53,957 nt of DNA from Burkholderiales bacterium (GTDB lineage Bacteria; Pseudomonadota; Gammaproteobacteria; Burkholderiales; JAEUOS01), in NCBI GenBank assembly GCA_947473125.1, contig CANJDH010000020.1:1-53957 (forward strand), written 5' to 3'. Below, piece by piece: positions 17,010 to 53,957 of this stretch. A program made the translations under genes and the position numbers. Positions within the stretch are counted from its first letter, which is position 1; every line of letters begins with the position of its first letter. The notes under the pieces are model-generated. The model was not told the DNA's origin. It made no database searches and saw nothing but the letters and a program-made list of their open reading frames with translations.

Positions 17010-17011
17010 CT

Positions 17012-18049
17012 TCAGAACCCGGCCCTGACCATGCGATCGGCCTTGGCCGGCAGGAAGGAACGATTGAAGATTTCGGACGCGGCGGGGTTGCGCGGCAGGC
17101 CGTAACTCTCGTTGAGCTGGACGATCGAGCGCGTCAGGCGGTCGTCTTTGACGTCACCCAGGCCCAGTTCGGCCGCTTCGGGTGTCAGCATCAGGTTTTT
17201 CATGGTGTACACCAGACGGCGCTTCTCGATGTCCTTGTTGATCAGCGGTTCGTTCCTGGCTAATGTGTCGATGCAGGGGTCCGGTTGCGCTGCGCATTCC
17301 TTGATGGCCTTGTGCACGGCGCGTACCAGCCCAGATACCGCTTGCGGGCGCTCCTTGAGCAACTGCTGCGACACCATCACGCCGTTGCTGTACAGGTCGA
17401 GGCCGTAGTCGCCGTAATAGAACCAGCGGATGTCCTTGTCCGGGTCAACCCGCTGCGCGACCAGATTCATGTAACTGGTTGCGGAGAACACGGCAGAAGC
17501 GCCTACCTGTCCCTGCAACAGCATCTGTTCCTGCAGGTTGGGCGCCATGTTGAGCCAGGTGACTTTCTTGTCGTCGATGCCGTTTTTCTTCGCCAGCGCG
17601 TCGAATACCTTGAGCGCGGCGGCCCCGGCGGGGGAGCCGAGGGTCTTGCCTTCAACGTCCTTGAGCGACTTGATCGGGCTGTCGATCTTGGTGATCAGGG
17701 CAAACGGCGCGCGGTTGTAGAGCATGTAGACCATCACCGGCGCTTCACCGGGTTTGGTCGCCGCGTTCTGGATGATGGCATTGATGTCGCCGAAGCCGGC
17801 CTGATAGGCCCCGGCCATGATGCGCGTGACCGTGGCTGCCGATCCTTCACCTTGATCGATGGTGACGTCGAGTTTTTCGTCCTTGAAGTACCCCTTTTCC
17901 TGCGCCCAGTAATACCAGGCGTGCACCCCCTGGATCTTCCAGTCGAGAGTGAATTTGATCTTCGCGTCCTGCGCGGCAGCGGGAATCGCAGCAGCCATCA
18001 GGGCCATGGCGACGCCTATTGCCGGAAAGAAGGGTTTCAGTTTTCGCAT
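17012..18049 (-). CDS. NMT1/THI5-type ABC substrate-binding protein (copy 1)
   Basis: A 345-residue periplasmic binding protein. The start MRKLKPFFPAIG with a signal peptide ending PAAAQD was preferred over a long upstream open stretch. The mature protein opens KIKFTLDWKIQGVHAWYYWA, as in binding proteins for pyrimidine precursors, sulfonates and hydantoins. Segments EKGYFKDEKLDVTIDQGEGSAA and GFGDINAII are shared with the paralogue at 23196-24236. It lies 44 bp after the permease gene. The ligand is unknown; the NMT1/THI5 type and neighbours suggest a ring compound. Confidence 0.9.
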   Translation of the reverse strand: MRKLKPFFPAIGVAMALMAAAIPAAAQDAKIKFTLDWKIQGVHAWYYWAQEKGYFKDEKLDVTIDQGEGSAATVTRIMAGAYQAGFGDINAIIQNAATKPGEAPVMVYMLYNRAPFALITKIDSPIKSLKDVEGKTLGSPAGAAALKVFDALAKKNGIDDKKVTWLNMAPNLQEQMLLQGQVGASAVFSATSYMNLVAQRVDPDKDIRWFYYGDYGLDLYSNGVMVSQQLLKERPQAVSGLVRAVHKAIKECAAQPDPCIDTLARNEPLINKDIEKRRLVYTMKNLMLTPEAAELGLGDVKDDRLTRSIVQLNESYGLPRNPAASEIFNRSFLPAKADRMVRAGF

Positions 18050-18093
18050 TGCGAACCTCTTGGCAGTTGAAAGACGTTTGTGAAATGGGAATG

Positions 18094-18873
18094 TCAGGCG
18101 ATGGAAAAGTCGGTCTTGCGCTGTGCCCAACCGGTGACCTTGTGCTCGATGAAGGAAAAGATCGCGTAAAGCGCCACGCCAAGGAACGCCAGGATAAACA
18201 GCCCGGCAAACACCAGCGGCACGTCGAAATTGCCGGAGGCGATCATCATCACGTTGCCGATGCCGCGGTTGGCCGCGACCGTCTCGGACAGCACGCTGCC
18301 GACAAAGGCCAGCGAGATCGCGATCTTCAGCGAGGCGAACAGGTAGGGCATGGTGCGCGGCAGGCCCACGTTCCACAAAATGTCCGTCTTGCTTGCGCCG
18401 AGCGCGCGCAACACGTCCTCGAGTTCCGGTTCGGTGGTCGCCAGGCCAGTGGCGACGTTGACCACTACCGGGAACATGCTGATGGTCATCGCCGTGAGGA
18501 TCGCGGGTACGGTGCCGGCGCCGAACCAGACGACAAAGATCGGTACCACCGCTACCTTCGGAATGCTGTTGAATCCGACTAGCAGGGGATAGGCGACGTC
18601 ATAGGCGAGCTTCGAGGAACCGATCATGACGCCGATCAGGACGCCCGCAAGCACGCCAAGCCCGAATCCGACCACGGTAGTGAACAGGGTTTGCGTCGCG
18701 TGCGGCATTAGGGCCGGTAGTCGCTCGAACAGCACTTTGAAGATCTGGCTCGGTTTGGGCAGCACCAGGTCGCTGACGTTGAACAGGCGGCAGATCAGTT
18801 CCCACAGCAGGAACAGGGCCAGCACCGAGAGCACGGAGAGCAGACGCTGGCGCGAACGCGGATCGAGCTTCAT
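18094..18873 (-). CDS. ABC transporter permease (SsuC/TauC type)
   Basis: A 259-residue permease with about six hydrophobic segments. The EAA coupling motif is seen as EDVLRALGASKTDILWNVGLPRTMPYLFASLKIAISLAFVGSVLSE in the usual position (around residues 145-190). Its start overlaps the ATPase stop as ATGA. It is the only permease in the operon and presumably serves both binding proteins as a homodimer. Confidence 0.93.
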   Translation of the reverse strand: MKLDPRSRQRLLSVLSVLALFLLWELICRLFNVSDLVLPKPSQIFKVLFERLPALMPHATQTLFTTVVGFGLGVLAGVLIGVMIGSSKLAYDVAYPLLVGFNSIPKVAVVPIFVVWFGAGTVPAILTAMTISMFPVVVNVATGLATTEPELEDVLRALGASKTDILWNVGLPRTMPYLFASLKIAISLAFVGSVLSETVAANRGIGNVMMIASGNFDVPLVFAGLFILAFLGVALYAIFSFIEHKVTGWAQRKTDFSIA

Positions 18874-19670
18874 GCGGCCTCCAGGGCGACGCCGCGCGAA
18901 TCGGCGATCTGCATGCGCAGGTGCTGCACGATGGCGGTGAATTCAGGGGTGAAGGTCATGGCCAGGGTGCGCGGGCGCGCGAAGTCGACATCGCGGATGT
19001 CGAGAATGCGCCCGGGCCGGGCGCTCATCATGTAGATGCGCGTGCCCAGGTAGCAGGCCTCGCGCAGGTCGTGGGTGACCAGGATCACGGTGGGTTTCTT
19101 GTCCAGCCACAGCGACTGCATGATGGACCACAACTCCTCACGGGTGAACTGGTCGAGCGCGCCGAAGGGTTCGTCGAGCAACAACAGGCGCGGCTCGTGA
19201 ATCAGCGCACGGCACAGCGAGGCGCGCTGCAGCATGCCGCCGGAGAGTTGCCAGGGGCGCTTGTCGCCGAAACCGGCCAGCCCGACCTGCTTGAGCAGGG
19301 CCTCGGCGCGGTCGGCAAACTCGGTCTTCTTTTTCGACCCGTACTCCTGCCGGAACGGCGGCACGATCTTGAGCGGCAGCATCACGTTGTCGCGCACCGA
19401 GAGCCAGGGCAACATGGTCGGATTCTGAAATGCCATGCCGACCCCTTTCGAGGGGCCGCGTACTTCGTGCCGATCGACCATGACATTGCCGGTCGTCGCG
19501 GGAATCAGGCCGGCCACCAGCTTCAGGATGGTCGATTTGCCGCAGCCCGACGGGCCGACGACGGCGACGAAATCGCCTTGGCCGATCTTCATGTCGGTGG
19601 AGGCCAGGGCAAGCACGTCGCCGCCCGGATAGCGCAGTGAGACATTATCGAGTTCAATGAAAGCGGTCAT
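18870..19670 (-). CDS. ABC transporter ATPase (nitrate/sulfonate/taurine type)
   Basis: A 266-residue ATPase with Walker A GPSGCGKST (39-47), Q-loop FQNPTMLPW, signature LSGGMLQRASLCRAL (Met-Leu in place of the usual Met-Gln) and Walker B LLLLDEPFGALD. The start MTAFIELDNVSL at 19670 was chosen because it overlaps a small upstream ORF as ATGA and begins the fold correctly; a longer reading exists but lacks similarity. It pairs with the permease immediately downstream. Confidence 0.93.
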   Translation of the reverse strand: MTAFIELDNVSLRYPGGDVLALASTDMKIGQGDFVAVVGPSGCGKSTILKLVAGLIPATTGNVMVDRHEVRGPSKGVGMAFQNPTMLPWLSVRDNVMLPLKIVPPFRQEYGSKKKTEFADRAEALLKQVGLAGFGDKRPWQLSGGMLQRASLCRALIHEPRLLLLDEPFGALDQFTREELWSIMQSLWLDKKPTVILVTHDLREACYLGTRIYMMSARPGRILDIRDVDFARPRTLAMTFTPEFTAIVQHLRMQIADSRGVALEAA

Positions 19671-19816
19671 TTTGGTCCTTGTGTGCGGGCCATGAGGCCA
19701 AAGTCGCCGGTCCGCACGGACGCGGCGAGCTCCCCGGGTTGTTGCTGCCAGGAGTTGATCGGGGCAAGCGCCCCGGCCGGGCCGTCGCCCGGGGTCTTGT
19801 GAATGCGCTGCGTCAT
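19667..19816 (-). CDS. Small 49-residue ORF coupled on both sides
   Basis: Between the M20 gene and the ATPase gene a 49-residue frame runs from an ATG at 19816 to a TGA at 19667. It begins MTQRIHKTPGDGPAGALAP and ends FGLMARTQGPK. Its start overlaps the M20 stop and its stop overlaps the ATPase start, both as ATGA. The protein is hydrophilic, has no cysteine pairs, membrane segment or signal peptide, and I do not recognise its family. The double overlap argues that it is translated, either as a real small protein or as a coupling leader for the ATPase. Confidence 0.6.
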   Translation of the reverse strand: MTQRIHKTPGDGPAGALAPINSWQQQPGELAASVRTGDFGLMARTQGPK

Positions 19817-20955
19817 GCCGATAAGCCCAGCAATTCCCGCACCACCTTGAGCTGGATCGCACCGGCCTCGACAAGCACGGCCTCGGCGACCGATTCGTTC
19901 GCGGCGTGGCCTTCGCGATCGTCGCCCGGGCCGAAAATCACGATCTGGGTGCCGCTATCCGACAGAAAGCGCGCATCGCTGGCGCCCACCGGCACGCGAA
20001 ATTCGGCCGTCTTGCCGGTCACCGACTTGACGGCATCGGCGAAGGCGCGCACCAGCGGTTGATCCGGCGACATGCGAAAGCCGTTGGTCCCGGTCATGCG
20101 CTCCAGATGCCAGCTTCCTTCAGGTTCTCCTGCGGCGCCGATGATGTGCTGCAACTCTGCCATCGCCGCCTCGATATTCTCCAGGCCGGGCAGAAGCCGT
20201 CGGTCGAGCGTGACCGTGCACTGGTCAGGTACCACGTTGGTATTGGCGCCGCCATTGATGGTCCCGACGCTGATGGTGGAGCGATGCTCGCCGAGCGTGC
20301 GTTGCGCAAGCGAACCGGCTTCGTAATGGTGCAGGGCGACCAGCAAGCGCGCCATGCGCGTGATGGCGTTGTCGCCCGCAGCCGGGTCGCCGGCATGGGC
20401 GGCGCGCCCCTTGGTGGTGAGCCGCGCCCAGAGCACGCCACGTTCTTCCACCATCAGGGTGTTGGAGGTCGGGGCGGCCATGACCAGCATGTCTGCCTTG
20501 AGGTGGCCCGCCTCGGCAAGAAACTGGGTGCCATTCGGTCCCAGCCGTTCTTCGTCGCCCGCGAACGAGAATACCAGCGTGCCTTTCTTGGGCCCACCGG
20601 CACGTGCAACTTGTTGCGCTACCCAGAGCTGGACGGCGGCGCTGCCCTTGCAGTTGACGGCACCGAGCCCGGCGTGGCGCTGATCCGGCTGGGGCGTGAG
20701 CGCATACGGGTCGGTACGCCAGCCGCTGCCGGGGGCGACGGTATCAATGTGGCTGTTGAATGCCAGGACCGGCGCGCCTTGCCCCAGGGAGGCCACGACG
20801 TTGTCGACGGTGTCCGCCCGGCTCAGGGTCTGTACCGCATAGCCGCTGGCGCGCAGCGTCGCGGCGATGACTTCGCACACGGCCACCGTCGAGCCGGGCG
20901 GTGTCGGCGAGGGCGCCGCGACCAGGGTCGCGAGCAATTGCGCGAGCTCAGACAT
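19813..20955 (-). CDS. M20-family metallohydrolase, atypical metal site
   Basis: A 380-residue protein of the ArgE/DapE/carboxypeptidase G2 family. Visible are NSHIDTV with H69 and D71, the base pair GDEE (E135, E136), HAGDPAAGDNAI after H187 and the C-terminal GHAANE. Two expected metal ligands are changed: the bridging Asp of the GxxDxKG motif is Asn101 (GAVNCKGS), and the acidic residue before PT is Ala161 (AAPTSN). It overlaps the hydantoinase-like gene by 8 bp. In this context a carbamoyl-amino-acid or dipeptide-like hydrolase is expected, but the altered site could mean a changed or lost activity. Confidence 0.88.
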   Translation of the reverse strand: MSELAQLLATLVAAPSPTPPGSTVAVCEVIAATLRASGYAVQTLSRADTVDNVVASLGQGAPVLAFNSHIDTVAPGSGWRTDPYALTPQPDQRHAGLGAVNCKGSAAVQLWVAQQVARAGGPKKGTLVFSFAGDEERLGPNGTQFLAEAGHLKADMLVMAAPTSNTLMVEERGVLWARLTTKGRAAHAGDPAAGDNAITRMARLLVALHHYEAGSLAQRTLGEHRSTISVGTINGGANTNVVPDQCTVTLDRRLLPGLENIEAAMAELQHIIGAAGEPEGSWHLERMTGTNGFRMSPDQPLVRAFADAVKSVTGKTAEFRVPVGASDARFLSDSGTQIVIFGPGDDREGHAANESVAEAVLVEAGAIQLKVVRELLGLSA

Positions 20956-22378
20956 GCGGGCCGCCGGCCGTGACGATGGCGCCCATGGTCTTGTCGGTGT
21001 TGCGCGGGCGCGGCGCGGGCATGGCCTGTATCGGCTTGACCGATTGCCCCCAGCCGCGCGTTGTGGCGATGAGCTCGCGGTCGCGCATCACGAAGCGCCC
21101 ACGCACCATGGTGTGGATCGGCACGCCCTTGACCGGCCGGGCATTCCATGGCGTGAGTTTGCTGCGCGAGTGCAGCTTTTCGTTGGCGATCACCGCTTCG
21201 CGTGCCAGATCCACCATGGCGAAGTCGGCATGCGCCCCGGGAGCGATGACGCCCTTGGTGCCGTACAGGCCCCAGGCCTTGGCGGGGTTGACGGCGCTCC
21301 AGCGCACGTAGTCCATGATGGTGGCGCGGCCCTTGCTGATTTCGGTCAGCATCAGCGGCATCTGGGTTTCGACGCCGGGAAAGCCGCAATCGCAGTTCCA
21401 GATGCGCTCGCGGGTCTTCTCGTCCGGCGCGTGCGGCGCATGGTCGGTGGCGATCATGTCGAGCACGCCTTCGACCAGGGCATCCCACAGCGGCGCGTTA
21501 TGCCGCTCGTCGCGAATCGGCGGGTTGACGCGCAGCACGCTGCCCAGACGCGTCATGTCATGGGTATTGAGCAATAAGTATTGCGGACAGGTCTCGGCCG
21601 TGACATCGACGCCGCGGCGCTTGGCATCGCGCAGCAAATACAGCGAGTCGGCGGCACTGTGGTGCGCAATGTGCAGACGCGCGCCGGTCCATTCGGCAAA
21701 GGCAATCGCGCGGCCGATCGCCTCGATCTCGCACACTTCGGGTCTGGCTGCCAGATGTGCATGCCGGTCGGCGCGACCGGCGGTTTCCATGCGTGCCTGG
21801 CGGCGCGCCATGATTGACGGGTTCTCGGCATGGACGGTGCAGCGTATGCCGCGCCGCGCCAGGATCTCGAAGCCTTCGAGAATCGCCCCGTCGGATGGTG
21901 CCGGCAGGTTACCGAAGGTATTGCCCATGAAACACTTGAAGCTGGTGGCGCCTGCGTCGATCAGCGCTTCGAGCTGGTCGATGTTGTCTTCATCAAGCAG
22001 GGCGTGGATGCCGTAATCCACGTGCGAGATGGCGGCGTTCTTGAGCTTGAGGGCCAGAGCGTCAAGGGTGCCGGTCGGCGGATTGGTATTGGGCATGTCA
22101 AACACCGTGGTCACACCACCACATGCGGCGGCGGCGGAACCGGTGCCCCAGTCTTCCTTGTGCGCATAGCCGGGATCACGAAAGTGCACGTGGCTGTCAA
22201 TCGCACCGGGCAAGATGTGCAGGCCGGTGGCATCGAACCGTTCCGTTGCCGGTGGCATCGCATCATCACTGCCGATGGCGACAATGGTCTGGCCGCGAAT
22301 CGCGATTGACGCCTCGATCACCGCCTGATCGGAGACCACCTTGCCGCCGTGTATGACGAGGTCAACTGTTTGCTGCAT
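20948..22378 (-). CDS. Hydantoinase/allantoinase/dihydroorotase-family cyclic amidohydrolase
   Basis: A 476-residue cytosolic enzyme of the cyclic amidase group. The binuclear site is complete: HVHFRDPG with H63 and H65, the carboxylated lysine K148 in ATSFKCF, H183 in HAEN, H236/H239 in HIAHHS and catalytic D312 in MIATDHAPH. The HxHxRDPG form and length favour the allantoinase/dihydroorotase branch over true dihydropyrimidinases. It should open a five- or six-membered ring amide to an N-carbamoyl acid. Its product could then pass to the amidase or M20 enzyme of the same operon (inference). A short run of 15 bp separates it from the SDR gene. Confidence 0.92.
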   Translation of the reverse strand: MQQTVDLVIHGGKVVSDQAVIEASIAIRGQTIVAIGSDDAMPPATERFDATGLHILPGAIDSHVHFRDPGYAHKEDWGTGSAAAACGGVTTVFDMPNTNPPTGTLDALALKLKNAAISHVDYGIHALLDEDNIDQLEALIDAGATSFKCFMGNTFGNLPAPSDGAILEGFEILARRGIRCTVHAENPSIMARRQARMETAGRADRHAHLAARPEVCEIEAIGRAIAFAEWTGARLHIAHHSAADSLYLLRDAKRRGVDVTAETCPQYLLLNTHDMTRLGSVLRVNPPIRDERHNAPLWDALVEGVLDMIATDHAPHAPDEKTRERIWNCDCGFPGVETQMPLMLTEISKGRATIMDYVRWSAVNPAKAWGLYGTKGVIAPGAHADFAMVDLAREAVIANEKLHSRSKLTPWNARPVKGVPIHTMVRGRFVMRDRELIATTRGWGQSVKPIQAMPAPRPRNTDKTMGAIVTAGGPHV

Positions 22379-22393
22379 GAGGAGTTCTCCGGG

Positions 22394-23185
22394 TTAGAGC
22401 ATGGCCCAGCCGCCATCGACCGGCAGGTCGACACCGGTAATCTGGCGCGAGACATCGGATGCCATGAACAGGCAGGCATTGGCCACGTCGGTATCGTTGG
22501 TGACGCGCTTCAAGGCGTAGTCGGCGGCGTGGCGCTCGGCGGCTTCCTCAGGCGTGATGCCGAATTTTTTCGCCATGTCTGCGCACACCTTGTCGCGAAA
22601 CCGTGGGCCGTCCACCATGCCCGGCGCAACGTTGTTGACGTTGATGCCGAAAGGCCCGGCTTCGAGCGCAAAGCTCTTGGTGATGCCACGCAGGCCCCAT
22701 TTGGACGCGGAGTAGGCCATGCGCCCGGCGCGACCGCGCATGCCGAAGGTGCCGCCCACGTTGACGATCTTGCCGCTCTTCCTGGCAATCATGCCGGGCA
22801 GAACCGCACGCATGGTGTTGAAGCAGCCCTTCATGTTGAGTTCGACGATCTGGTCGAATTCTTCGGGCGTGGTTTCCCAGCCGGTCTTGCCGATCGGCCC
22901 CGAGCCCCCCGCGACGTTGACGAGGATATCGACACCGTTCCCCAGTTCGGCGGCCGCGCTAACCAGCGCCTTGCAATCGGCAGCGTCGGTGACGTCACAC
23001 GGCACCACCACGACCTTGACACCGAGTGAGCGAGCCTGCTGCGCTACCGGTTCGATCGCGGTGGTGTCGCGCCCGGCCAGTGCGAGATGCACGCCTTCGC
23101 GCGCAAAGGCGAGGCTGATGGCGGCCCCCATGCCTTTGGCCGGCCCGGTGATGATCGCGACTTTGTCCTTCAAATGCAGGTCCAT
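22394..23185 (-). CDS. Short-chain dehydrogenase/reductase, catalytic Ser replaced
   Basis: A 263-residue SDR with cofactor motif TGPAKGMG (13-20), NVAGG near residue 90 and the YSASK motif with Y158 and K162. The residue 13 positions before Tyr, normally the catalytic Ser, is Gly145 within NVGGTFG; Thr146 is the nearest hydroxyl. The C-terminal GVDLPVDGGW is standard. It lies between the second binding protein and the hydantoinase-like gene, so it probably oxidises or reduces a pathway intermediate. Confidence 0.9.
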   Translation of the reverse strand: MDLHLKDKVAIITGPAKGMGAAISLAFAREGVHLALAGRDTTAIEPVAQQARSLGVKVVVVPCDVTDAADCKALVSAAAELGNGVDILVNVAGGSGPIGKTGWETTPEEFDQIVELNMKGCFNTMRAVLPGMIARKSGKIVNVGGTFGMRGRAGRMAYSASKWGLRGITKSFALEAGPFGINVNNVAPGMVDGPRFRDKVCADMAKKFGITPEEAAERHAADYALKRVTNDTDVANACLFMASDVSRQITGVDLPVDGGWAML

Positions 23186-23195
23186 GTGCTGCGTC

Positions 23196-24236
23196 CTATT
23201 TTCCGGTGATGGTGAGTTTGCTCAGGCGCTCGCTGCGCGGCGGCAGGAAGGCGCGGGAAAACACTTCCTCTCTCGATGGCCTGCGCGTCAAGCCGCTGGC
23301 TTCGACGACGACATTGATGGTCTTGTCGAGGCGCTCGTCGGTGACGTCGCCGAGGCCGATCCTGGCGATTTCGGGCGCGCTCATCTCTTCCTTGATGGTG
23401 GCGATCAGGCGCTCTTTTTCGATGTCGCGCTTGACCAGCGGCTCGCGCTTGAGCACCGTATCCATGCCCGCTTCCGGATTGGCCAGGGTGTCGGCGATGG
23501 CGCGGTTGAGTGCCTTGAGCAGACCCTTGACGGCGTTCGGGTTGTCCTTGGCCAGTTGGCGCGAGACCACGATGGCGTTGCTGTACAGGTCCAGGCCGTG
23601 GTCGGCATAGTTGATGAAGCGCAGGTCTTTTTCCGGGTCCATGCCGAAGGCTTTGGCCGAGAACCAGATGGTGTTGATGTAGCCGAACACCGCGTCAACC
23701 TGGCCCTGCTTCAACATCTGCTCGCGCAGGTTGGGCGTCATGTTGGTGATCTTGACCTTGGATGCGTCAACCTTTGCGACCTTGGCAAACGCCGGGAACA
23801 GTTTGAGCGCACCGTCGTTGGCCGGGCCGCCGATGGTCTTGCCTTCGAGGTCTTTCGGCGTTTTGATCGGGCTGTCCTTCTTGACCGCAATGGTGAACGG
23901 CGGCACGTTGTACATCATGAACACCGCCAGCGGCGCCTCGGCAGGCTTTTTCGAGGCGATTTCAATGAGCGCGTTGATGTCGCCGAAACCGACGTTGTAG
24001 GAGCCGTTGGCCACCTTGATGATGGATGCGGCCGAGCCTTCACCCTGGTCCATCTCGACGTCGAGGCCTTCGGCCTTGAAATAGCCCTTGTCCTGGGCGA
24101 TGAAAAACCAGGCTTGCGGGCCCTGGTATTTCCAGTTCAGGACCATCTTGATCTTGGTTTGCGCAGCGGTGACCGGTGCGTAGGCCGTCAGGGCAAGGGC
24201 GCAGGCGGCAAGGCCGGCAGCGATCAGACGTTTCAT
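23196..24236 (-). CDS. NMT1/THI5-type ABC substrate-binding protein (copy 2)
   Basis: A 346-residue periplasmic binding protein with signal peptide MKRLIAAGLAACALALTAYA. It is a clear paralogue of the protein at 17012-18049: shared segments include KGYFK, DQGEGSAA, GFGDINA, GLDLYSN and RLDKTI/RLTRSI at matching positions. No second permease exists in the operon, so both binding proteins probably feed the same transporter with related ligands. Its start overlaps the upstream amidase stop as ATGA. Confidence 0.92.
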   Translation of the reverse strand: MKRLIAAGLAACALALTAYAPVTAAQTKIKMVLNWKYQGPQAWFFIAQDKGYFKAEGLDVEMDQGEGSAASIIKVANGSYNVGFGDINALIEIASKKPAEAPLAVFMMYNVPPFTIAVKKDSPIKTPKDLEGKTIGGPANDGALKLFPAFAKVAKVDASKVKITNMTPNLREQMLKQGQVDAVFGYINTIWFSAKAFGMDPEKDLRFINYADHGLDLYSNAIVVSRQLAKDNPNAVKGLLKALNRAIADTLANPEAGMDTVLKREPLVKRDIEKERLIATIKEEMSAPEIARIGLGDVTDERLDKTINVVVEASGLTRRPSREEVFSRAFLPPRSERLSKLTITGK

Positions 24237-25015
24237 GGCGACTCCTTCGGAAGGGTGGGTAGCGCAGACAAAATCGAAGCGGTGGTGGTGGTGAATCCGT
24301 GCAGCTGCCGCACTAGAAACAAGATTGCGTCAGTCACATACTGGGGTGAGGGCGTGGCGCAGGCATCTTCGAGGAGCACACAGTCATAGCCGAGAAAGCC
24401 GGCATCCTGGAGGGTCGAGAAGACGCAGCGGTCGGTGTTGATTCCGGCAAACAGCAGCGTGGTGACGCCGGCAGCACGCAAGAGTGAGTCGAGCTCGGTA
24501 TCCCAAAAGCCCGACAGGCGGTGCTTGTTCACGCTGATGTCGCCCGCGTGCATGGGCAGCTGGTCTATTTGTGCCGCGCCCCAGCTGCCTTGCACCAGCG
24601 CGGGGCCATGCCCGGAGGAGGAGGCCTCGCCATACCCGACGGCATCGGATGAGCGCTTGCCACGGTACAGCACGGAGGCCGGCAGGTTGGCACGGTCGGC
24701 GCGGATGCCCCAGTTGAGCCATACGATGTGCGACCCCGCCGCGCGCAGAGCTGCGGCGATCGTTCCTATCGGTTCGATTGGTTTGCACATGGGCGTCACA
24801 TCAATGCCCTTGCAGCCGAACCAGCCGTCGCGGTGGCAAAAATCGTTTTGCATGTCGACCACAATCAGCGCCGTGCGCGCCAGGTCGATTTCAACAGGCG
24901 CCGGTTCCGCAGGCAGTCGCACGGGCCGCGCTGCCACGGGCGGGCGTACCAGACTTACGAGCTGGTCGTGCACCGTCCAGGTCGTTGCAGGAGTGGGGCC
25001 GGGCTGATAGGACAT
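24233..25015 (-). CDS. Isochorismatase-family cysteine hydrolase (amidase-like)
   Basis: A 260-residue cytosolic enzyme with a complete catalytic triad: D54 in VVDMQNDF, K164 in VNKHRLSGF and C197 in GINTDRCVFST. The GINTDxCV form is common in N-carbamoylsarcosine amidase and ureidoacrylate amidase relatives rather than isochorismatases. It is the first gene of the ten-gene operon, just downstream of the LysR-divergent region. A role in cleaving a carbamoyl or amide group from a ring-opened intermediate is inferred. Confidence 0.9.
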   Translation of the reverse strand: MSYQPGPTPATTWTVHDQLVSLVRPPVAARPVRLPAEPAPVEIDLARTALIVVDMQNDFCHRDGWFGCKGIDVTPMCKPIEPIGTIAAALRAAGSHIVWLNWGIRADRANLPASVLYRGKRSSDAVGYGEASSSGHGPALVQGSWGAAQIDQLPMHAGDISVNKHRLSGFWDTELDSLLRAAGVTTLLFAGINTDRCVFSTLQDAGFLGYDCVLLEDACATPSPQYVTDAILFLVRQLHGFTTTTASILSALPTLPKESP

Positions 25016-47727: not shown

Positions 47728-48756
47728 CTAGTTCTTTTGCAGCGTCGCAATCTCGCCGCGCAGCGCCTCGAGTATGGCTTTGCCGTCAGCGCCTTTCGTC
47801 TTGACCTTGTCAACCCAAGCCTGTTCCAGCCCGGCCGTGCGCGCCTTGATGTCGGCCACCAACTGCGGACTCGCGTTCATCACTTGTATGTTGTTTTCGC
47901 TGACCGCCCGCTGGCCGCGTGTATCAGCGGCATCCCATACCTTGCCGAAGCGGCGTGCCAACGCCTCTCCGGAGATCTTTGCGATGGCATCGCGATCCGC
48001 TGGCGAAATCTGCGCCCATTTCTTCGGGTTGGCAATCAAGGCAAAGCTGACGTTGTACAGGCCGCCGGGCACGTAGGTGACATGTTTGATCACGCGCATC
48101 AGGTTCAGCCCGACAGGACTTTCCTTGGGCAGCATGGTGCCGTCGACCACGCCCGCGGAAATCAGTTCGTAGCTTTCGGAGGCCGGCTTGAGTACTGCGG
48201 ATGCGCCCACTGCCTTGGTAACGTCGCTGACCACGCCGCTGGCGATGCGCAGTTTGAGGCCTTCGAAATCCTTGATTGTCGCGATCGGCCGGCGGCTGTT
48301 GTAGACCTGCCCCGGGCCGTGCGTGAACACGCCAAGCGTAATCACTCCCTTGTGTTCGTCGAACCTGGAGAGCAGGCGGTCGTAGATGCGCTGGTAGGCG
48401 ACCGACATGACCTCGGCCGAATCGGCCATGAATGGCAGCTCGACCGATTCTGCCAGCGGGAATCGCCCCGGCGTATAGCCTTGGACAATGAAAGAAATGT
48501 CCGCCACGCCGTCGCGAATGGCGTCAAACGTGCCCGGTGGACTGGAGACCGCTTTGGGCAGTACCCGGCACGCGACGCGTCCCTGCGTGACCGCCTCGAT
48601 GTCCTTGCAGTAAGGCAGGGTCATTTCGGCAACCAGCGGATGGGCGGCAGGCACCCAGGAACTCAGGTCCAGAACCACCTGCGACATGGCCGGCGGAGCC
48701 CAGGCCAGCAATGCGCTCAAAGCTGTGGCAAGCAGAACGTGACGATGATTCTTCAT
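47728..48756 (-). CDS. TRAP transporter substrate-binding protein DctP-like
   Basis: A 342-residue periplasmic protein. The signal peptide is MKNHRHVLLATALSALLAWA with cleavage near PAMSQ; the start has GGAGAA upstream and replaces a longer reading. DctP hallmarks are FEGLKLRIASG with the Arg that binds carboxylates, ELISAGVVDGTMLP, and the C-terminal helix. No DctQ or DctM gene is in the window, so the membrane subunits must be elsewhere. It follows the tetR gene by 38 bp in the same direction and may import the carboxylate handled by the divergent operon. Confidence 0.92.
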   Translation of the reverse strand: MKNHRHVLLATALSALLAWAPPAMSQVVLDLSSWVPAAHPLVAEMTLPYCKDIEAVTQGRVACRVLPKAVSSPPGTFDAIRDGVADISFIVQGYTPGRFPLAESVELPFMADSAEVMSVAYQRIYDRLLSRFDEHKGVITLGVFTHGPGQVYNSRRPIATIKDFEGLKLRIASGVVSDVTKAVGASAVLKPASESYELISAGVVDGTMLPKESPVGLNLMRVIKHVTYVPGGLYNVSFALIANPKKWAQISPADRDAIAKISGEALARRFGKVWDAADTRGQRAVSENNIQVMNASPQLVADIKARTAGLEQAWVDKVKTKGADGKAILEALRGEIATLQKN

Positions 48757-48794
48757 GGCAAGGGTTCTCCTTCGTTGGCACTGCACGCGCTGCG

Positions 48795-49478
48795 CTAAAG
48801 CTTACTGACGAGCTTGAGTTCCGGTTTCGCCAAACCCGGTGATGCGGTAAATAGCCCGGACACAATCATCCGGGTAAATGTCGCGGCCACCGCGTCAAGG
48901 CCGACATCGGCGGCGACACTCGACCAGCGGGCGACGGCGTTGCACATGCCCAGTACGGCGAGCACGGTAATCTTGCGGTCGATGTCGCTGGCAATTACGC
49001 CCAAGGTCTGGCCTTCGACCAGCAGCGCATGCCAGAGGTCTTCATAATTGCGCGCCAATCGGTCAAGCGGTCGCCGCATCGCGGCCGGCAGCTCGCTGCG
49101 CTGAAACAGGAACGCGTGCACATAGAACCGGTTTTCGAGCAATGGCTCGAGGTGCGCACGCACCGCCTGCCGAACTTTCTCTTCGACCGGAATCGGCGCT
49201 GCCTGGATCGCCGCAAGGTGCTCCACAAACTGCGTGATGGCAAAGTAACAGATGGCCTCAAGAATGCCGGCCTTGGACGGGAAGTAGTAATACAGCGCCG
49301 CCGGCTGCACGCCGCAGCGCTCGGCGATTTCACGCATACCGGCACCGTGATATCCACGCTCCGCGAATACGTCGGCGGCGGTGCGCAGGAACTCGCTGCG
49401 CCGCTGCGCCTGGCCAACAGTGGATTTGGCCGTCGATCTTGAAGTTGCCACTTTGGCAGTTGCCGACTTGGCGTTCAA
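48795..49478 (-). CDS. TetR-family regulator of the reductase/CoA-ligase operon
   Basis: A 227-residue repressor. The helix-turn-helix is at about residues 30-76 (RTAADVFAERGYHGAGMREIAERCGVQPAALYYYFPSKAGIL). The C-terminal domain resembles TetR proteins that sense acyl-CoAs or hydrophobic acids (inference). The start appears to be TTG at 49478, with no better codon before the HTH. A 12-bp palindrome lies 10 bp upstream and a consensus promoter further up, so autoregulation is likely. Confidence 0.92.
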   Translation of the reverse strand: MNAKSATAKVATSRSTAKSTVGQAQRRSEFLRTAADVFAERGYHGAGMREIAERCGVQPAALYYYFPSKAGILEAICYFAITQFVEHLAAIQAAPIPVEEKVRQAVRAHLEPLLENRFYVHAFLFQRSELPAAMRRPLDRLARNYEDLWHALLVEGQTLGVIASDIDRKITVLAVLGMCNAVARWSSVAADVGLDAVAATFTRMIVSGLFTASPGLAKPELKLVSKL

Positions 49479-49651: not shown

Positions 49652-50950
49652 ATGCGTCGTCAGCAGGCGATTCTTGAAGGGCTGGACATGGGCGCGCTGG
49701 ATGAAGTGGGGCGGCTGACGCAGGAGCGACAGCCGCAGAACGAGGGGCCTTATCGGCTCAAGGGAAACCTCCGTCACGCCAAGGATGACGCCTGCGGGTT
49801 TGAAGTGCTCGATACGTTCGAGCGCTTCAACCAGTCCAACGACATCTACACGCGCGGCCAGTGGGATTCGCGCATCCGCTCGGAAAAAGTGCTCAACTGG
49901 TTCAAGGGCATGTTCAAGACCGGGCTTGGGGTGCGCAATGCCGATGGCTACTCGGTGCGCGACTTTGCCTTGCGCAATGCCGGCTGGATGGGCGCCAACC
50001 TGACCATCCAGCGTAGCCTCCATCAGGGCAGGGTCGATGGTTTTCTTGACTATATCCAGCCCTATTCCGAACCGAATGCCGAGCAGGTCGCGGTCGAGTC
50101 ACCGGCGGCGATGGCCGAAGAGATCAAGCGGGTCAGCCGACTGTTTGGTGCCGATGGGGTAGGCATCACCCATTCCGATCCGCGCTGGCACTACACGCAC
50201 AGTTTCGCAACCAAGGCGCTGGCCGAGAAGCCGTATGCGATACCGGAGGGGCTGCCGAACGTGATCGTGATCGTCACGTCGATGCACTACGATGCGGTCA
50301 AGTGCTACCCCTCCGCCACCGCCGGTATTGCGGTCGGGCATGGCTACTCGCGCGACTGCGAACTGGTGCAAAGCATCGCTACCTACATTCTCAACCTTGG
50401 CTACCGCGCGATCGCGAGCGTCAACGATTCCTCGCTGGCGATTCCCTACGCGATCCAGGCAGGGCTGGGCGAGTATGGCCGCAATGGCCTGTTGATCACC
50501 AAGGATTTCGGTCCGCGAGTGCGCATCGGCCGCATCCATACCGACCTGCCGCTCGGCCACGATGAACCCATCCGGTTCGGCGTGCGCGAGTTCTGCGACA
50601 CGACCTGCCGCCGTTGCGCCGACGCATGCCCGCCCAAGGCGATTCCACAAGGCCCGCCCACCGAGGTGATTCCCAACCAGTCTTCGATCATCGGCATTCG
50701 CAAGTGGCAGATAGATGCTGAAAAATGCTTCAAGTTCTGGGTCAATCAGGCGACTGAGTGCGGCATCTGCATGCGCGTTTGCCCGTACAACAAGGACATT
50801 TCGCGCTGGTGGTCGCGCTGGTATTACCGCGCATGGCAGCGGCTGGCGGCGTCGCCCTTCAAGAAGCTGGCGCTGTGGCTTGACGTCAAACTCAAGTTCG
50901 GCGAGCGCATGAAGCCGAGCCAATTCTGGCAGCAATTTCGCTCCAGATGA
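49652..50950 (+). CDS. Reductive-dehalogenase-like (RdhA family) corrinoid/Fe-S protein, cytoplasmic
   Basis: A 432-residue protein. The RdhA core is clear: YPSATAGIAVGHGYSRDCELVQSIATYIL, GLGEYGRNGLLITKDFGPRVRIGRIHTDLPL (271-301) and FGVREFCDTTCRRCADACPPKAI. Two [4Fe-4S] sets are C315, C319, C322, C326 and C359, C370, C373, C377. There is no Tat signal and no rdhB anchor gene, unlike respiratory enzymes; there is also no fused reductase domain as in NpRdhA-type catabolic enzymes, so an outside electron donor is needed. An ATG at 49688 with GAAGGG upstream is an alternative start. The stop overlaps the ligase start (ATGA). Confidence 0.87.
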   Translation: MRRQQAILEGLDMGALDEVGRLTQERQPQNEGPYRLKGNLRHAKDDACGFEVLDTFERFNQSNDIYTRGQWDSRIRSEKVLNWFKGMFKTGLGVRNADGYSVRDFALRNAGWMGANLTIQRSLHQGRVDGFLDYIQPYSEPNAEQVAVESPAAMAEEIKRVSRLFGADGVGITHSDPRWHYTHSFATKALAEKPYAIPEGLPNVIVIVTSMHYDAVKCYPSATAGIAVGHGYSRDCELVQSIATYILNLGYRAIASVNDSSLAIPYAIQAGLGEYGRNGLLITKDFGPRVRIGRIHTDLPLGHDEPIRFGVREFCDTTCRRCADACPPKAIPQGPPTEVIPNQSSIIGIRKWQIDAEKCFKFWVNQATECGICMRVCPYNKDISRWWSRWYYRAWQRLAASPFKKLALWLDVKLKFGERMKPSQFWQQFRSR

Positions 50951-52518
50951 ACCTGGTTCGGGCGTTCACGTCGACGGTGCGCCATCATGGTCAGCGCCCG
51001 GCCATGCTTGACGCTGCGCGGAGCTACACCTGGGCAGAGTTCGGCATGCGCGTGTCGCGCGTCGCCGGCATGCTGGAGCGCTTCGGTGCGATGTCCGGCA
51101 GGCACTTCGGCATTCTTGCGCGCAACGGCTTTCGCTATGAAGAGCTCAAGTGGGCCGGTTTTTGGCTCGGTGCCATTCCTGTGCCGCTCAATTTCCGTCT
51201 CGCGCCACCGGAGATTGCGCAGATTCTGGATGATGCGCAATGCACCCACGTCATGGTGGAAAGCGTATTTGCGCCGATGCTGGAGCATCCGGCGCTTGCT
51301 CCCTGGCGCAATCGGGTCACGATTTTTGGCGAAAGCGCTGGTGCCAATGCAGCCCCCTATGAGTCGCTCCTCGCCGACGCGACGCCGGTTCCCGCGAGCG
51401 ACCCTGATCCGGACGCCGACGCGCTGCTCCTCTATACCGGGGGGACCACCGGCCGCAGCAAGGGAGTGCGCCTGTCGCACAGCAATATTCTTTCCAACAA
51501 TCTGGCCTTCGGACTGGCCGTGGGCGCGCGGCCTGAGCACGTGTACTTGCATGCGGCGCCGATGTTTCATTCGGCTGACCTGCTGGCCTTGGGTTGGTTC
51601 CTCCAAGGCGCGGCGCAGTGCTTTTTGCCGATGTTTTCGCCCCAAGCCTTCCTTGAAACCATCGCACGCCATCAAGTGGGCGCGGTGGTGACCGTGCCCA
51701 CCATGCTGATCGGCACTGTGTCGAGCCCGGAATTTTCCGCCGCCGACACTTCCTCATTGCGGGTGTTGATCTACGGTGCTGCACCGATGGCGCTTGAATG
51801 GGTCGAGCGTGTAGCTGCTGCCTTCCCCGATGTCGAACTGTTCAATTGCTACGGTTTGACCGAGACGGCGCCGGATCTCACCATCTTCGATGCGCGCGAG
51901 TTTCGTGCTGCGATCAAACACATGTCTACCTCGGGAGAACGCGAGGGTCCGCTGCTCTCGGTTGGCAAGCCCAACGCGCTCAATGAGCTGCGGGTGGTGG
52001 CGCCGGATGGGCGCGAAGTCGCCCCGGGTGACGCCGGCGAACTGATCGCGCGCGGCCCGAACATCATGAAGGGCTATCACAAGCGCGATGACGAAACGCG
52101 CGCAACACTGCGCGACGGCTGGCTGTATACCGGCGACATTGCGCGCATCGATGCGGCCGGCTATGTGTATCTGCTCGACCGCCTCAAGGACATGGTGATC
52201 ACCGGTGGCGAGAATGTCTATTCGTCCGAGGTGGAAGCTGTGCTGCACCGCCATCCCGCGATCGCCGAGGCGGTGATTGTCGGTGTTCCGGATGAGCGTC
52301 TGGGGGAAATGGTCACGGCGGTGATCGTGGCCAAGCCCGGACTGCGACCAAGTGCCGAAGAGATCGCTGCACACTGCCGCGCATTCCTCGGAGGGTTCAA
52401 GGTGCCGCGTCGTTTCGAGTTTGTTGAGCAGTTGCCCAAAAGTGCGCTTGGCAAGGTGCTCAAGGGTGAAATCAGGCAGTCCCGACAGCAGGAGAAGCCC
52501 CATGTACAACCTGGCTGA
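50947..52518 (+). CDS. Acyl-CoA synthetase (AMP-binding)
   Basis: A 523-residue ANL-superfamily ligase. The P-loop is YTGGTTGRSKGV (163-174), the aromatic/GYGxTE-type motif reads NCYGLTETAP, YTGDIARIDAAGYVYLLDRLKDMVITGGENVYSSEVE covers the hinge, and the C-terminal catalytic Lys is in SALGKVLKGEI. It activates a carboxylic acid to its CoA thioester in the cytosol. It is coupled to the RdhA-like gene before it and overlaps the QueG-like gene after it by 17 bp. The acid is unknown; aromatic or medium-chain are both possible. Confidence 0.92.
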   Translation: MNLVRAFTSTVRHHGQRPAMLDAARSYTWAEFGMRVSRVAGMLERFGAMSGRHFGILARNGFRYEELKWAGFWLGAIPVPLNFRLAPPEIAQILDDAQCTHVMVESVFAPMLEHPALAPWRNRVTIFGESAGANAAPYESLLADATPVPASDPDPDADALLLYTGGTTGRSKGVRLSHSNILSNNLAFGLAVGARPEHVYLHAAPMFHSADLLALGWFLQGAAQCFLPMFSPQAFLETIARHQVGAVVTVPTMLIGTVSSPEFSAADTSSLRVLIYGAAPMALEWVERVAAAFPDVELFNCYGLTETAPDLTIFDAREFRAAIKHMSTSGEREGPLLSVGKPNALNELRVVAPDGREVAPGDAGELIARGPNIMKGYHKRDDETRATLRDGWLYTGDIARIDAAGYVYLLDRLKDMVITGGENVYSSEVEAVLHRHPAIAEAVIVGVPDERLGEMVTAVIVAKPGLRPSAEEIAAHCRAFLGGFKVPRRFEFVEQLPKSALGKVLKGEIRQSRQQEKPHVQPG

Positions 52519-53413
52519 GCTGGTCAATTTGGCGCAGGCCCCCGACGCGGACGCGGCCATTGCGATGTCGCGAGCCGACGACATCCGCCGGCTCGCGCTC
52601 GCATCGGGCGTGGATGTGGTGGGCATTGCGCCGGTCGAGCGCTGGGACGATTTTGTGCCGCCAGGCTCACGGCCCTATGACATCCTGCCCGGCGCCAAGT
52701 CGGTGGTCGTGGTGGGTGTTCGGGGGCCCTCGGCCGGGGCCTGGCAGTCGCCTGACCATCGCCTGATCGAGATGAATGGCTACGATTTCGCCAACGACCG
52801 GGTGATTCACCTGGTGTCCGACCACATCGAGCGTGAGTACGGCTACCAGGCAATCCAGGCACCGGGACTGCCGGTGGGCGGCCATCAACCGGCGTTTTCG
52901 ATGATGCTGGCGGCGGTGCTTGCCGGTCTGGGCACGCGCTCGTTTGCCGCCAACATCATTCTCAATCCCAGGTACGGCTTGTTGTACTACTCCGCCTGTC
53001 TCACTACCCTGGAGTTGCCGGCCGATGCGATGCTTGAGCAGGACGTGTGCCCGGCGCCGATGTGCGTGCAGGTGTACAAAGCCGGCGGCAGGACGCCCTG
53101 TCAGGCGGCCTGCCCGTCGGACGAAGGCGGCTGCCTGCACGGCACCATCGGCCCGGACAACAGGATCGAATCGACCTACTACGATCGCGAGCGCTGTGTC
53201 TCGCGGGCCATGAATTTCGGCATCAACAGCTTTCAGAAGGCACTCGAACAAATTGCCAACGAGGACGACGACGAGCGCCGCCGCATGATGATCCATTCGG
53301 ACTTTTTCACGCGGTCGACGTCGGCCATTGCGTTCTACAAGGAAAGCGTCGCGCAATGCTTTGAGTGTATGCGGGTGTGCCCGATCGGCCGGGCAGAAAG
53401 GAAGCTCAAATGA
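52502..53413 (+). CDS. QueG-like 4Fe-4S protein (copy 1)
   Basis: A 303-residue protein. The N-terminal half matches the epoxyqueuosine-reductase/reductive-dehalogenase-type fold (LPGAKSVVVVGVRGP, residues 62-76; GYQAIQAPGLPVGGHQPAFSMMLAAVLAGLG). The Fe-S region has cysteines at 183, 188, 200, 204, 232, 286, 289 and 293; the last three, in CFECMRVCP, are a standard ferredoxin half-motif, but the first set (C-x4-C-x11-C-x3-CP) is spaced unlike QueG. The start has GGAGA upstream. The tRNA-modifying role of QueG is unlikely in this context; a corrinoid or Fe-S reductase partner of the RdhA-like protein is inferred. Confidence 0.82.
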   Translation: MYNLAELVNLAQAPDADAAIAMSRADDIRRLALASGVDVVGIAPVERWDDFVPPGSRPYDILPGAKSVVVVGVRGPSAGAWQSPDHRLIEMNGYDFANDRVIHLVSDHIEREYGYQAIQAPGLPVGGHQPAFSMMLAAVLAGLGTRSFAANIILNPRYGLLYYSACLTTLELPADAMLEQDVCPAPMCVQVYKAGGRTPCQAACPSDEGGCLHGTIGPDNRIESTYYDRERCVSRAMNFGINSFQKALEQIANEDDDERRRMMIHSDFFTRSTSAIAFYKESVAQCFECMRVCPIGRAERKLK

Positions 53414-53957
53414 GCGCAGCGGATCTGGACCTGATGGAAGCCCACAAGCGCGAACTGGCCGAGCTGGCCAAGAAAGCGGGAGCACAGGTGTCTGGGGTGG
53501 CTGATGCCGACGCGTTCACTGCGGCGATGGAGGGGCAGCGTCCGACCGAGTTACTGCCCGGATGCAAGACCGTATTTGTCCTCGGCGGTGCGCAACCCCG
53601 TGCCGGCGATTGGCATAGCCCCAGTTATCGCCACATGGAGACGACGTCGACATCTGATCGCGTCACGGCGATGGGCAACCGGATTGCGCAGCACATCGAG
53701 CGGCGTTTCGGCTACTACGCGGTCACCATTCCGCCGGGCGTCGACCGGGCACGTCGTCCTTTCCTCAACATCGCGCTTGCCGCCGAACTGGCGGGCTGTG
53801 GTTCGCCGAGCCTGGCCGGGCCGGTGCTGCACCCGGAGTTCGGCTTCATGTATTACACCGCCGTCCTGACGACCTTGCCGCTGCCGGTGGATGGGCCACT
53901 GACGGCGCCGGCCTGTCCCGCGCCCGAATGTGTGTCGATGTGGGACGAACTGGGCAC
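53410..53957 (+). CDS. QueG-like 4Fe-4S protein (copy 2), 3' end beyond window
   Basis: The frame opens at 53410, overlapping the previous stop as ATGA, and is open to the window end (182 residues). It is a tandem paralogue of the preceding protein: LLPGCKTVFVLGGAQPRAGDWHSPSYRHME matches LPGAKSVVVVGVRGPSAGAWQSPDHRLIE, then HIERRFGYYAV matches HIEREYGYQAI, and ACPAPECVSMWDE matches VCPAPMCVQVYKA. The Fe-S C-terminus is not visible. The pair may form a heterodimer. Confidence 0.8.
   Translation, partial: MSAADLDLMEAHKRELAELAKKAGAQVSGVADADAFTAAMEGQRPTELLPGCKTVFVLGGAQPRAGDWHSPSYRHMETTSTSDRVTAMGNRIAQHIERRFGYYAVTIPPGVDRARRPFLNIALAAELAGCGSPSLAGPVLHPEFGFMYYTAVLTTLPLPVDGPLTAPACPAPECVSMWDELG

Follow-up and report, generated by a model that had tools for sequence, protein, structure and literature searches.

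The window analysed here, 53,957 nucleotides (nt) long, is the whole of contig CANJDH010000020.1 (C20) of a Burkholderiales genome, our G000 (4.88 Mb in 209 contigs, 97% complete). At its right-hand end, on the forward strand, lies a run of four overlapping genes that encode a homologue of the reductive dehalogenase (RDH) RdhA, an acyl-coenzyme A (CoA) ligase, Lig1, and two small proteins related to one another, Q3 and Q4. A regulator gene and a gene for a binding protein of the tripartite ATP-independent periplasmic (TRAP) transporter type precede it on the opposite strand. L-numbers below denote loci, and G-numbers genomes, with which the window was compared.

47728..48786, reverse strand: TRAP-type solute-binding protein, DctP family (PF03480; best PDB relative 4p56, E 6.2e-91)
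48795..49478, reverse strand: TetR-family regulator, divergent from rdhA (PF00440/PF17932; position kept in L039 and L040)
49652..50950, forward strand: RdhA, without twin-arginine translocation (Tat) motif, one predicted corrinoid core, two [4Fe-4S] motifs, Y232/N258/R291 (TIGR02486; PceA match)
50947..52518, forward strand: Lig1, AMP-forming acyl/aryl-CoA ligase (PF00501, 241 bits; PF13193)
52502..53413, forward strand: Q3, small protein predicted to adopt the class-III corrinoid (QueG/RdhA) fold, Cys set conserved (fold match, hhalign)
53410..53957, forward strand: Q4, paralogue of Q3, truncated by the contig end (complete relatives 41–42% identical to Q3)

The genes are joined, just as a preliminary description of this DNA had it, by ATGA overlaps at 50947–50950 (rdhA/Lig1) and 53410–53413 (Q3/Q4), and by a 17-nt overlap at 52502–52518 (Lig1/Q3); reading frames and junctions were all found again as written. 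Position 53957 is the end of C20, and the run reaches it. The preliminary description had pointed to the gene order beyond this position, and in relatives, as one of the things to check, and the order does go on: the reverse strand of another G000 contig, C32, supplies the rest of Q4, a 118-aa protein, Sm5, and a second ligase, Lig2, the two contig ends overlapping by 7 nt, in frame within Q4. After Lig2, C32 carries oppositely oriented genes that resemble a siroheme/sulfite-reductase group. The complete order, RdhA-Lig1-Q3-Q4-Sm5-Lig2, is present in two genomes of the same family (L039 and L040), where RdhA is 83–84% identical to that of the window; at other loci it is kept only in part. The two closest operon-bearing genomes are metagenome-assembled genomes (MAGs) of Burkholderiales. 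Ratios of nonsynonymous to synonymous substitution (dN/dS, from computed dN and dS) are 0.13–0.14 for RdhA, 0.06–0.09 for Q3 and 0.08–0.10 for the partial Q4; selection on these is purifying. Genes in the compared loci were called with simple scripts, and several assignments—the sulfite-reductase group, and the acyltransferase and acyl-CoA dehydrogenase of locus L107, below—were made by eye.

In G000, G003 and G004 the run, together with the divergent tetR and the TRAP gene, sits between genes for a ferredoxin, FdxA, and a 1176-aa oxidoreductase on one side and the sulfite-reductase group on the other; in L039 and L040 the TRAP gene has stayed next to the operon. In G001, of the same family, both flanks lie within one 19-kb stretch; FdxA and the oxidoreductase match there at more than 60 bits, and nothing at that site exceeds 60 bits for RdhA, the ligases, Q3, Q4, Sm5, TetR or the TRAP protein. 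Because these flanks occur without the island, and because the oxidoreductase was found in 50 of 150 genomes in a search of relatives, we delimit the unit as TRAP-TetR-RdhA-Lig1-Q3-Q4-Sm5-Lig2, which leaves the ferredoxin and the oxidoreductase outside it as neighbours.

An RdhA lineage linked to CoA ligases

Against TIGR02486, the model for reductive dehalogenases, the window RdhA reaches 172.8 bits (cut-off 160.35), and against the QueG model 54.2 bits (cut-off 200). We aligned it with its counterparts from 27 of 31 loci, giving 28 rows; L063, L065 and L067 were excluded as cut or split, and L069 at 39% only. The cysteines of its two [4Fe-4S] motifs, C-x3-C-x2-C-x3-CP (C315–C326) and C-x10-C-x2-C-x3-CP (C359–C377), are invariant, all eight, in 28 of 28 rows, and so are Tyr232, Asn258 and Arg291, which align with Tyr246, Asn272 and Arg305 of PceA, residues with catalytic roles (PMC4646009). 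Among solved structures the closest by sequence is PceA (8q4h, 4uqu), followed by NpRdhA and then QueG. The structure predicted by AlphaFold (mean predicted local distance difference test score, pLDDT, 72.5) ranks them in the same way, with an E-value of 3.5e-24 for PceA. By this fold match to PceA and NpRdhA, RdhA is predicted to bind a corrinoid; the model contains no ligand.

The Tat motif RRxFxK occurs within the first 80 residues of none of the 28 rows, and the highest mean hydropathy over any 19-residue stretch is 1.31, so RdhA is probably cytoplasmic. Its direct neighbours are the TetR and ligase genes rather than rdhB, as judged from the adjacent genes alone and without an rdhB model. 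The protein is 432 aa long with a single core, its best stretch (residues 148–383) falling on the second half of NpRdhA; on the first half there are only weak stretches, and thus no sign of the vestigial second, N-terminal core of the NpRdhA/BhbA type. The preliminary description had called the protein neither Tat-exported nor an NpRdhA-type fusion, and so we find it: no Tat motif, one core, no fusion. A plasmid search with RdhA returned 19 records, all below 60% identity and none covering 80%.

What sets this RdhA apart is the company it keeps. To the 28 rows we added five more and searched the surroundings of all 33 rdhA genes by blastp with Lig1 and Lig2 (E 1e-10). A ligase gene lies on the same strand, no more than 100 nt 3′ of rdhA, in nine: the window, L039, L040, L041, L042, L043, G694_C371, G678_C53 and G692_C97. 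In a tenth, L044, the ligase is 2.4 kb downstream, after Q3-Q4-Sm5, on a contig that begins 150 nt before rdhA. The remaining 23 have no same-strand ligase downstream, with less than 3 kb of downstream sequence in L045, L051, L052 and G678_C93; L046, L054, L055 and L060 have a distant one on the opposite strand, 2.5–8.2 kb from rdhA. Pfam confirmed AMP-binding domains in the five ligase-linked loci tested besides the window. The ten linked rows, some of them near-copies, form one clade (support 99/99), recovered in every one of 200 bootstrap trees (100%); 500 shuffles gave no clustering as strong. The association of RdhA with a CoA ligase, seen by the preliminary description in one operon, thus extends to 10 of 33 rows and marks a coherent RdhA lineage.

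The known catabolic enzymes NpRdhA, BhbA and JtRdhA are, like the window RdhA, cytoplasmic and Tat-less, with a corrinoid and iron-sulfur clusters (PMC10463259, PMC6797604). They differ in having a vestigial second core and, often, a reductase domain, where the window protein has one core and CoA ligases beside it. BhbA and its kin also group elsewhere: in both trees, the window RdhA and its kin are separated, at 100/100, from BhbA, from the RdhA of Nitratireductor OM-1 and from the host family's own RdhAs of 697–811 aa. NpRdhA is not among the tree rows, long branches are flagged in both trees, and L012–L014 were left out of the first as copies of L035, L037 and L038. Respiratory PceA, the best match in sequence and in fold, shares the full triad and the single core; unlike the respiratory enzymes, the window type lacks a Tat motif and has a ligase gene next to rdhA in place of the anchor gene. 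Absence of a Tat motif is not new in itself, since in marine Deltaproteobacteria only 16 of 35 RdhAs have one, while rdhB is closely associated with 26 of 35 (PMC6299228). The available portion of that paper mentions no CoA-ligase partner, a comparison made by description only. Nor did we find an RdhA with such a partner elsewhere in the literature searched, which covered few subscription papers. As far as tested, then, the ligase-linked branch appears distinct from both the respiratory and the two-core catabolic types.

The RdhAs of the sister group (L045–L051, L053, L056–L059 and L068) have no same-strand ligase. Their neighbours, with one representative per cluster checked in Pfam, include a Trp/Tyr permease (7 of 31 loci), a PrnB-like protein (4), a MarR regulator (9), a class-V aminotransferase (4) and HgmA (3), which suggests that these enzymes dehalogenate halogenated tryptophan or tyrosine, in Luminiphilus syltensis as well. 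Some of the genomes compared are rich in RdhA-like matches (E 1e-20)—16 in G678, 12 in G692, 10 in G531, 8 in G530 and 7 in G694—and look like dehalogenation specialists. G000 itself has a second RdhA, at L031 (contig C112, 3430–5574), 715 aa long, of the catabolic type without reductase domain and over the RDH cut-off with 164.3 bits; it is flanked by apparent tricarboxylate-transporter binding proteins, a kind of neighbour also present at BhbA on plasmid pBHB.

Q3, Q4 and Sm5

Neither Q3 nor Q4 matches a Pfam or NCBIfam model, save for a sub-threshold chance hit of the partial Q4, and neither Q3, the partial Q4 nor the complete Q4 of L040 matches TIGR00276 (QueG, cut-off 200) at E 0.001. Nine cysteines are invariant across seven complete rows, and eight of these fit two [4Fe-4S] clusters. 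By hhalign, Q3 and Q4 reach 96% and 55% against RdhA, and 86% and 90% against QueG. The predicted structure of Q3 matches QueG best (Z 15.6), followed by NpRdhA (14.0) and PceA (13.0) and, at lower Z, by MMACHC (10.5), CblD and nitroreductases; confidence is low (mean pLDDT 61.8), and the C-terminal half with the ferredoxin part is poor, so the fold match is one of the core only. A PDB search with the Q3 sequence gave nothing up to E 1, the Q3 profile reached QueG at E 0.13 along with a chance hit to transthyretin, and a plasmid search with Q3 gave no match.

In an alignment of eight rows, Tyr94 is kept in the four Q3 rows and replaced by Thr or Phe in those of Q4, and the position of the RdhA arginine is occupied by a tyrosine (Y162 in Q3) in all eight. 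Q3 and Q4, then, are predicted to share the class-III corrinoid fold, with known active sites that are not recognisable. We considered and rejected the idea that they are QueG: they miss its model, the RdhA arginine is not aligned, and, unlike QueG, they sit in operons with ligases. A candidate for QueG proper in G000 is a separate, weakly matching frame on contig C21. Of the "two tandem QueG-like proteins" of the preliminary description the fold survives, whereas the likeness to the reductases is weakened, both proteins being without the arginine and Q4 without the tyrosine, too. Together they appear to define a second corrinoid-fold protein family with no Pfam or NCBIfam match over cut-off.

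Sm5 has no Pfam match, and aligns with the N-terminus of the ligase beside Q genes in L095, L097 and L098, the fusion being checked in Pfam for L095. It appears to be a ligase-linked domain for which no model exists.

It is quite possible that Q3-Q4-Sm5-Lig2 is an independent pathway with a substrate of its own, and shares only a promoter with RdhA-Lig1. L091, for one, has the order ligase-SDR-Q3-Q4-Sm5, in which SDR is a short-chain dehydrogenase/reductase, and no RdhA in the stretch; G530, G531 and G678 have single Q genes on other contigs, three of which precede Sm5-ligase fusions. Set against this is the distribution of the family among 31 genomes (uncorrected for kinship): a match turned up in each of the 9 that have a ligase-type RdhA, and in a single one of the remaining 22, the Thermoanaerobaculia MAG G686, which has a different RdhA. 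L108 argues the same way, for there two diverged iron-sulfur proteins, Q′ and Q″, again belong to an RdhA-ligase operon; they precede RdhA-ligase-SDR-thiolase, with ATGA overlaps before and after Q″, Q′ having no NCBIfam match and Q″ a weak one to QueG only. RdhA-Lig1 and a Q gene share a contig in L107, separated by a gene on the opposite strand. The family is rare: in a draw of 398 genomes from the phylum (E 1e-6) only G000 matches, G003 and G004 not being reported in the draw, and of 145 searched relatives of the L044 genome, none matches but that genome itself.

A proposed pathway and its rivals

Tentatively, and at what we would call close to an even chance, we read the island as one for the catabolism of a halogenated organic acid, most likely an aromatic hydroxy-acid, by CoA-linked dehalogenation. 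The halo-acid would be taken up with the help of the TRAP binding protein, TetR would control expression of the operon, and Lig1 would form the CoA thioester. RdhA, using cob(I)alamin and its pair of [4Fe-4S] clusters, would then swap halogen for hydrogen at the thioester level, and the product would pass into aryl-CoA catabolism. Q3, Q4, Sm5 and Lig2 would make up another module tied to a ligase, from the same fold superfamily, in which Q3/Q4 are most likely a heteromeric iron-sulfur/corrinoid-fold partner that delivers electrons to the CoA-bound substrate or completes its reduction. That halogen leaves, that the thioester is the substrate, which way the electrons flow and what Q3/Q4 do, we infer. 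From its sequences, the system appears to work like a catabolic reductive dehalogenase system without the defining traits of the respiratory or two-core type. In favour of this pathway we count that RdhA passes the RDH cut-off with the PceA Tyr, Asn and Arg in all 28 rows, that the ligase-linked rows make up a single clade, that in two relatives RdhA-ligase adjoins or lies near a hydroxylase of the salicylyl-CoA 5-hydroxylase family (below), that Q genes go together with ligase-type RdhA, the Q′-Q″ pair of L108, the Sm5-like N-termini of ligases beside Q genes, and the cobalamin genes on contig C66 (below).

A known CoA-linked system of another kind is the 4-chlorobenzoate pathway, which has a ligase and a hydrolytic, crotonase-like dehalogenase; the latter replaces the halogen by hydroxyl, whereas the window enzyme is a corrinoid reductase homologue. 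As proposed here, genes for TRAP uptake of the halo-acid (FcbT) stand beside those for dehalogenation (PMC4996985).

Hints of the substrate come from relatives. In L107 (G694_C371), RdhA-ligase lies near a salicylyl-CoA 5-hydroxylase (1121.7 bits; cut-off 1078), with one acyltransferase-like gene between, and the locus also encodes a member of the benzoate-CoA-ligase family and what looks like an acyl-CoA dehydrogenase. In L109 (G692_C97), RdhA-ligase is divergent from a hydroxylase of the same family that falls just under the cut-off (1073.8 bits). Of 12 genomes searched for the hydroxylase, namely the nine that have a ligase-type RdhA together with G001, G002 and G686, 10 encode one that passes the cut-off; the misses are G532 and G686. 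A 3-halo-salicylyl-CoA or a 3-halo-4-hydroxybenzoyl-CoA would fit. A separate pair of RdhA-like proteins, L036 (G004:C22) and L037 (G013:C97), which stand together at 100/99 in the first tree, are also each encoded at a distance of some 10 kb or less from a salicylyl-CoA 5-hydroxylase.

Several observations weigh against the thioester pathway. The substrates of characterised catabolic RdhAs are free ortho-halophenols (PMC10463259), and for dehalogenation of a thioester by an RdhA we found no precedent in the literature searched. The island has no other dehalogenation gene, and ligase family comparison of Lig1 and Lig2 does not fix the substrate, the solved structures closest to Lig1 being fatty-acyl-CoA synthase 8weu and feruloyl-CoA synthetase 8wev. 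The hydroxylase of G000 is elsewhere in the genome, not beside the window operon; the enzyme passes the cut-off in 41 of 300 genomes of the order, and it occurs in G001 and G002, where searches turned up neither a Q gene nor a close RdhA. The RdhA-Lig1 flanks examined in L041–L043 contain no Q gene, the Q genes of those genomes being 32–38% identical and on other contigs. Respiratory RdhAs are represented by two rows in the first tree and one in the second, on long branches, and the Sulfurospirillum row shifts its place. Finally, searches of G000, G003 and G004 gave neither CbiC nor CobS (controls were positive in 7 and 10 of 14). The preliminary description had made cobalamin synthesis or uptake a point to check, and it is uptake that finds some support: contig C66 of G000 encodes CobA and CobQ, over cut-off, and proteins like BtuB, BtuC and BtuF, below theirs. 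An ATP-binding cassette (ABC) ATPase there was not counted as BtuD, several uptake families matching it better. G000 thus has what looks like a cobalamin salvage profile, though genes may be missing from the MAG.

Might RdhA dehalogenate the free acid first, and Lig1 activate the product, instead, for ordinary CoA catabolism? We think this unlikely, though it deserves to be taken seriously: all catabolic RdhAs characterised at the time of PMC10463259 took ortho-halogenated phenols, JtRdhA supports growth on 3-bromo-4-hydroxyphenylacetate (PMC10463259), and the order of steps cannot be read from that of genes. Yet BhbA and its kin belong to another clade and have another architecture, four plasmid-borne loci of their type show no annotated ligase in the stretches inspected, and tight linkage to a ligase is specific, among the 33 rows, to the clade of the window. 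Of "CoA activation followed by a low-potential reductive step", as the preliminary description put it, the linkage stands, and the reduction may be of an acyl-CoA or, less probably, of a free acid. Alternatively, the leaving group might be not a halogen but a hydroxyl, alkoxy or sulfur group of an acyl-CoA. The RDH model and the triad derive from few characterised enzymes, and QueG reduces an epoxide with the same fold (PMC4646009); we nonetheless regard this as improbable, given that the PceA Tyr-Asn-Arg is invariant in 28 rows where QueG has no Arg (PMC4646009), and that the permease and PrnB genes near some sister-group RdhAs fit halogenated amino acids. That FdxA and the 1176-aa oxidoreductase belong to the system as its dedicated electron donors, as their ferredoxin and NAD(P)H-oxidoreductase domains and their place at the island's edge in three genomes might suggest, is very improbable, and we reject it in view of the G001 site and the oxidoreductase's wide occurrence; they may supply electrons nonetheless.

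If CoA-linked dehalogenation is indeed what the island performs, then reductive dehalogenation is also a part of aryl- and acyl-CoA catabolism, and not only a respiratory or free-phenol reaction, with uncultured Burkholderiales and Rhodospirillaceae as its setting. We know of no such pathway from either. It would also provide a gene candidate for the reductive dehalogenation of aromatic acyl-CoAs; that of 2,4-dichlorobenzoyl-CoA is, to our knowledge, described in old enzyme work without a gene. A bolder version, which we consider rather doubtful, has this RdhA lineage specialised on CoA thioesters and working with a new heteromeric family, Q3/Q4, that is recruited to CoA ligases via Sm5. Q3/Q4 would then add one more function to those that RdhA, QueG and CblC perform with the class-III corrinoid fold.

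Regulation and other genes of the window

No conserved operator was found in the gap between tetR and rdhA: the window has a 79% palindrome there, L040 none and L039 other ones, and the gap alignment stands at 58%. The nearest solved relative of the TRAP protein, 4p56, we take to be a Bordetella mandelate binder; we found no paper naming 4P56, and do not use it as evidence. Further upstream, at 15561–25015, the window encodes two amidohydrolases, an M20 peptidase, an SDR, an isochorismatase, an ABC transporter and two NMT1-type binding proteins, in what looks like a separate catabolic cluster for a nitrogen-containing compound.

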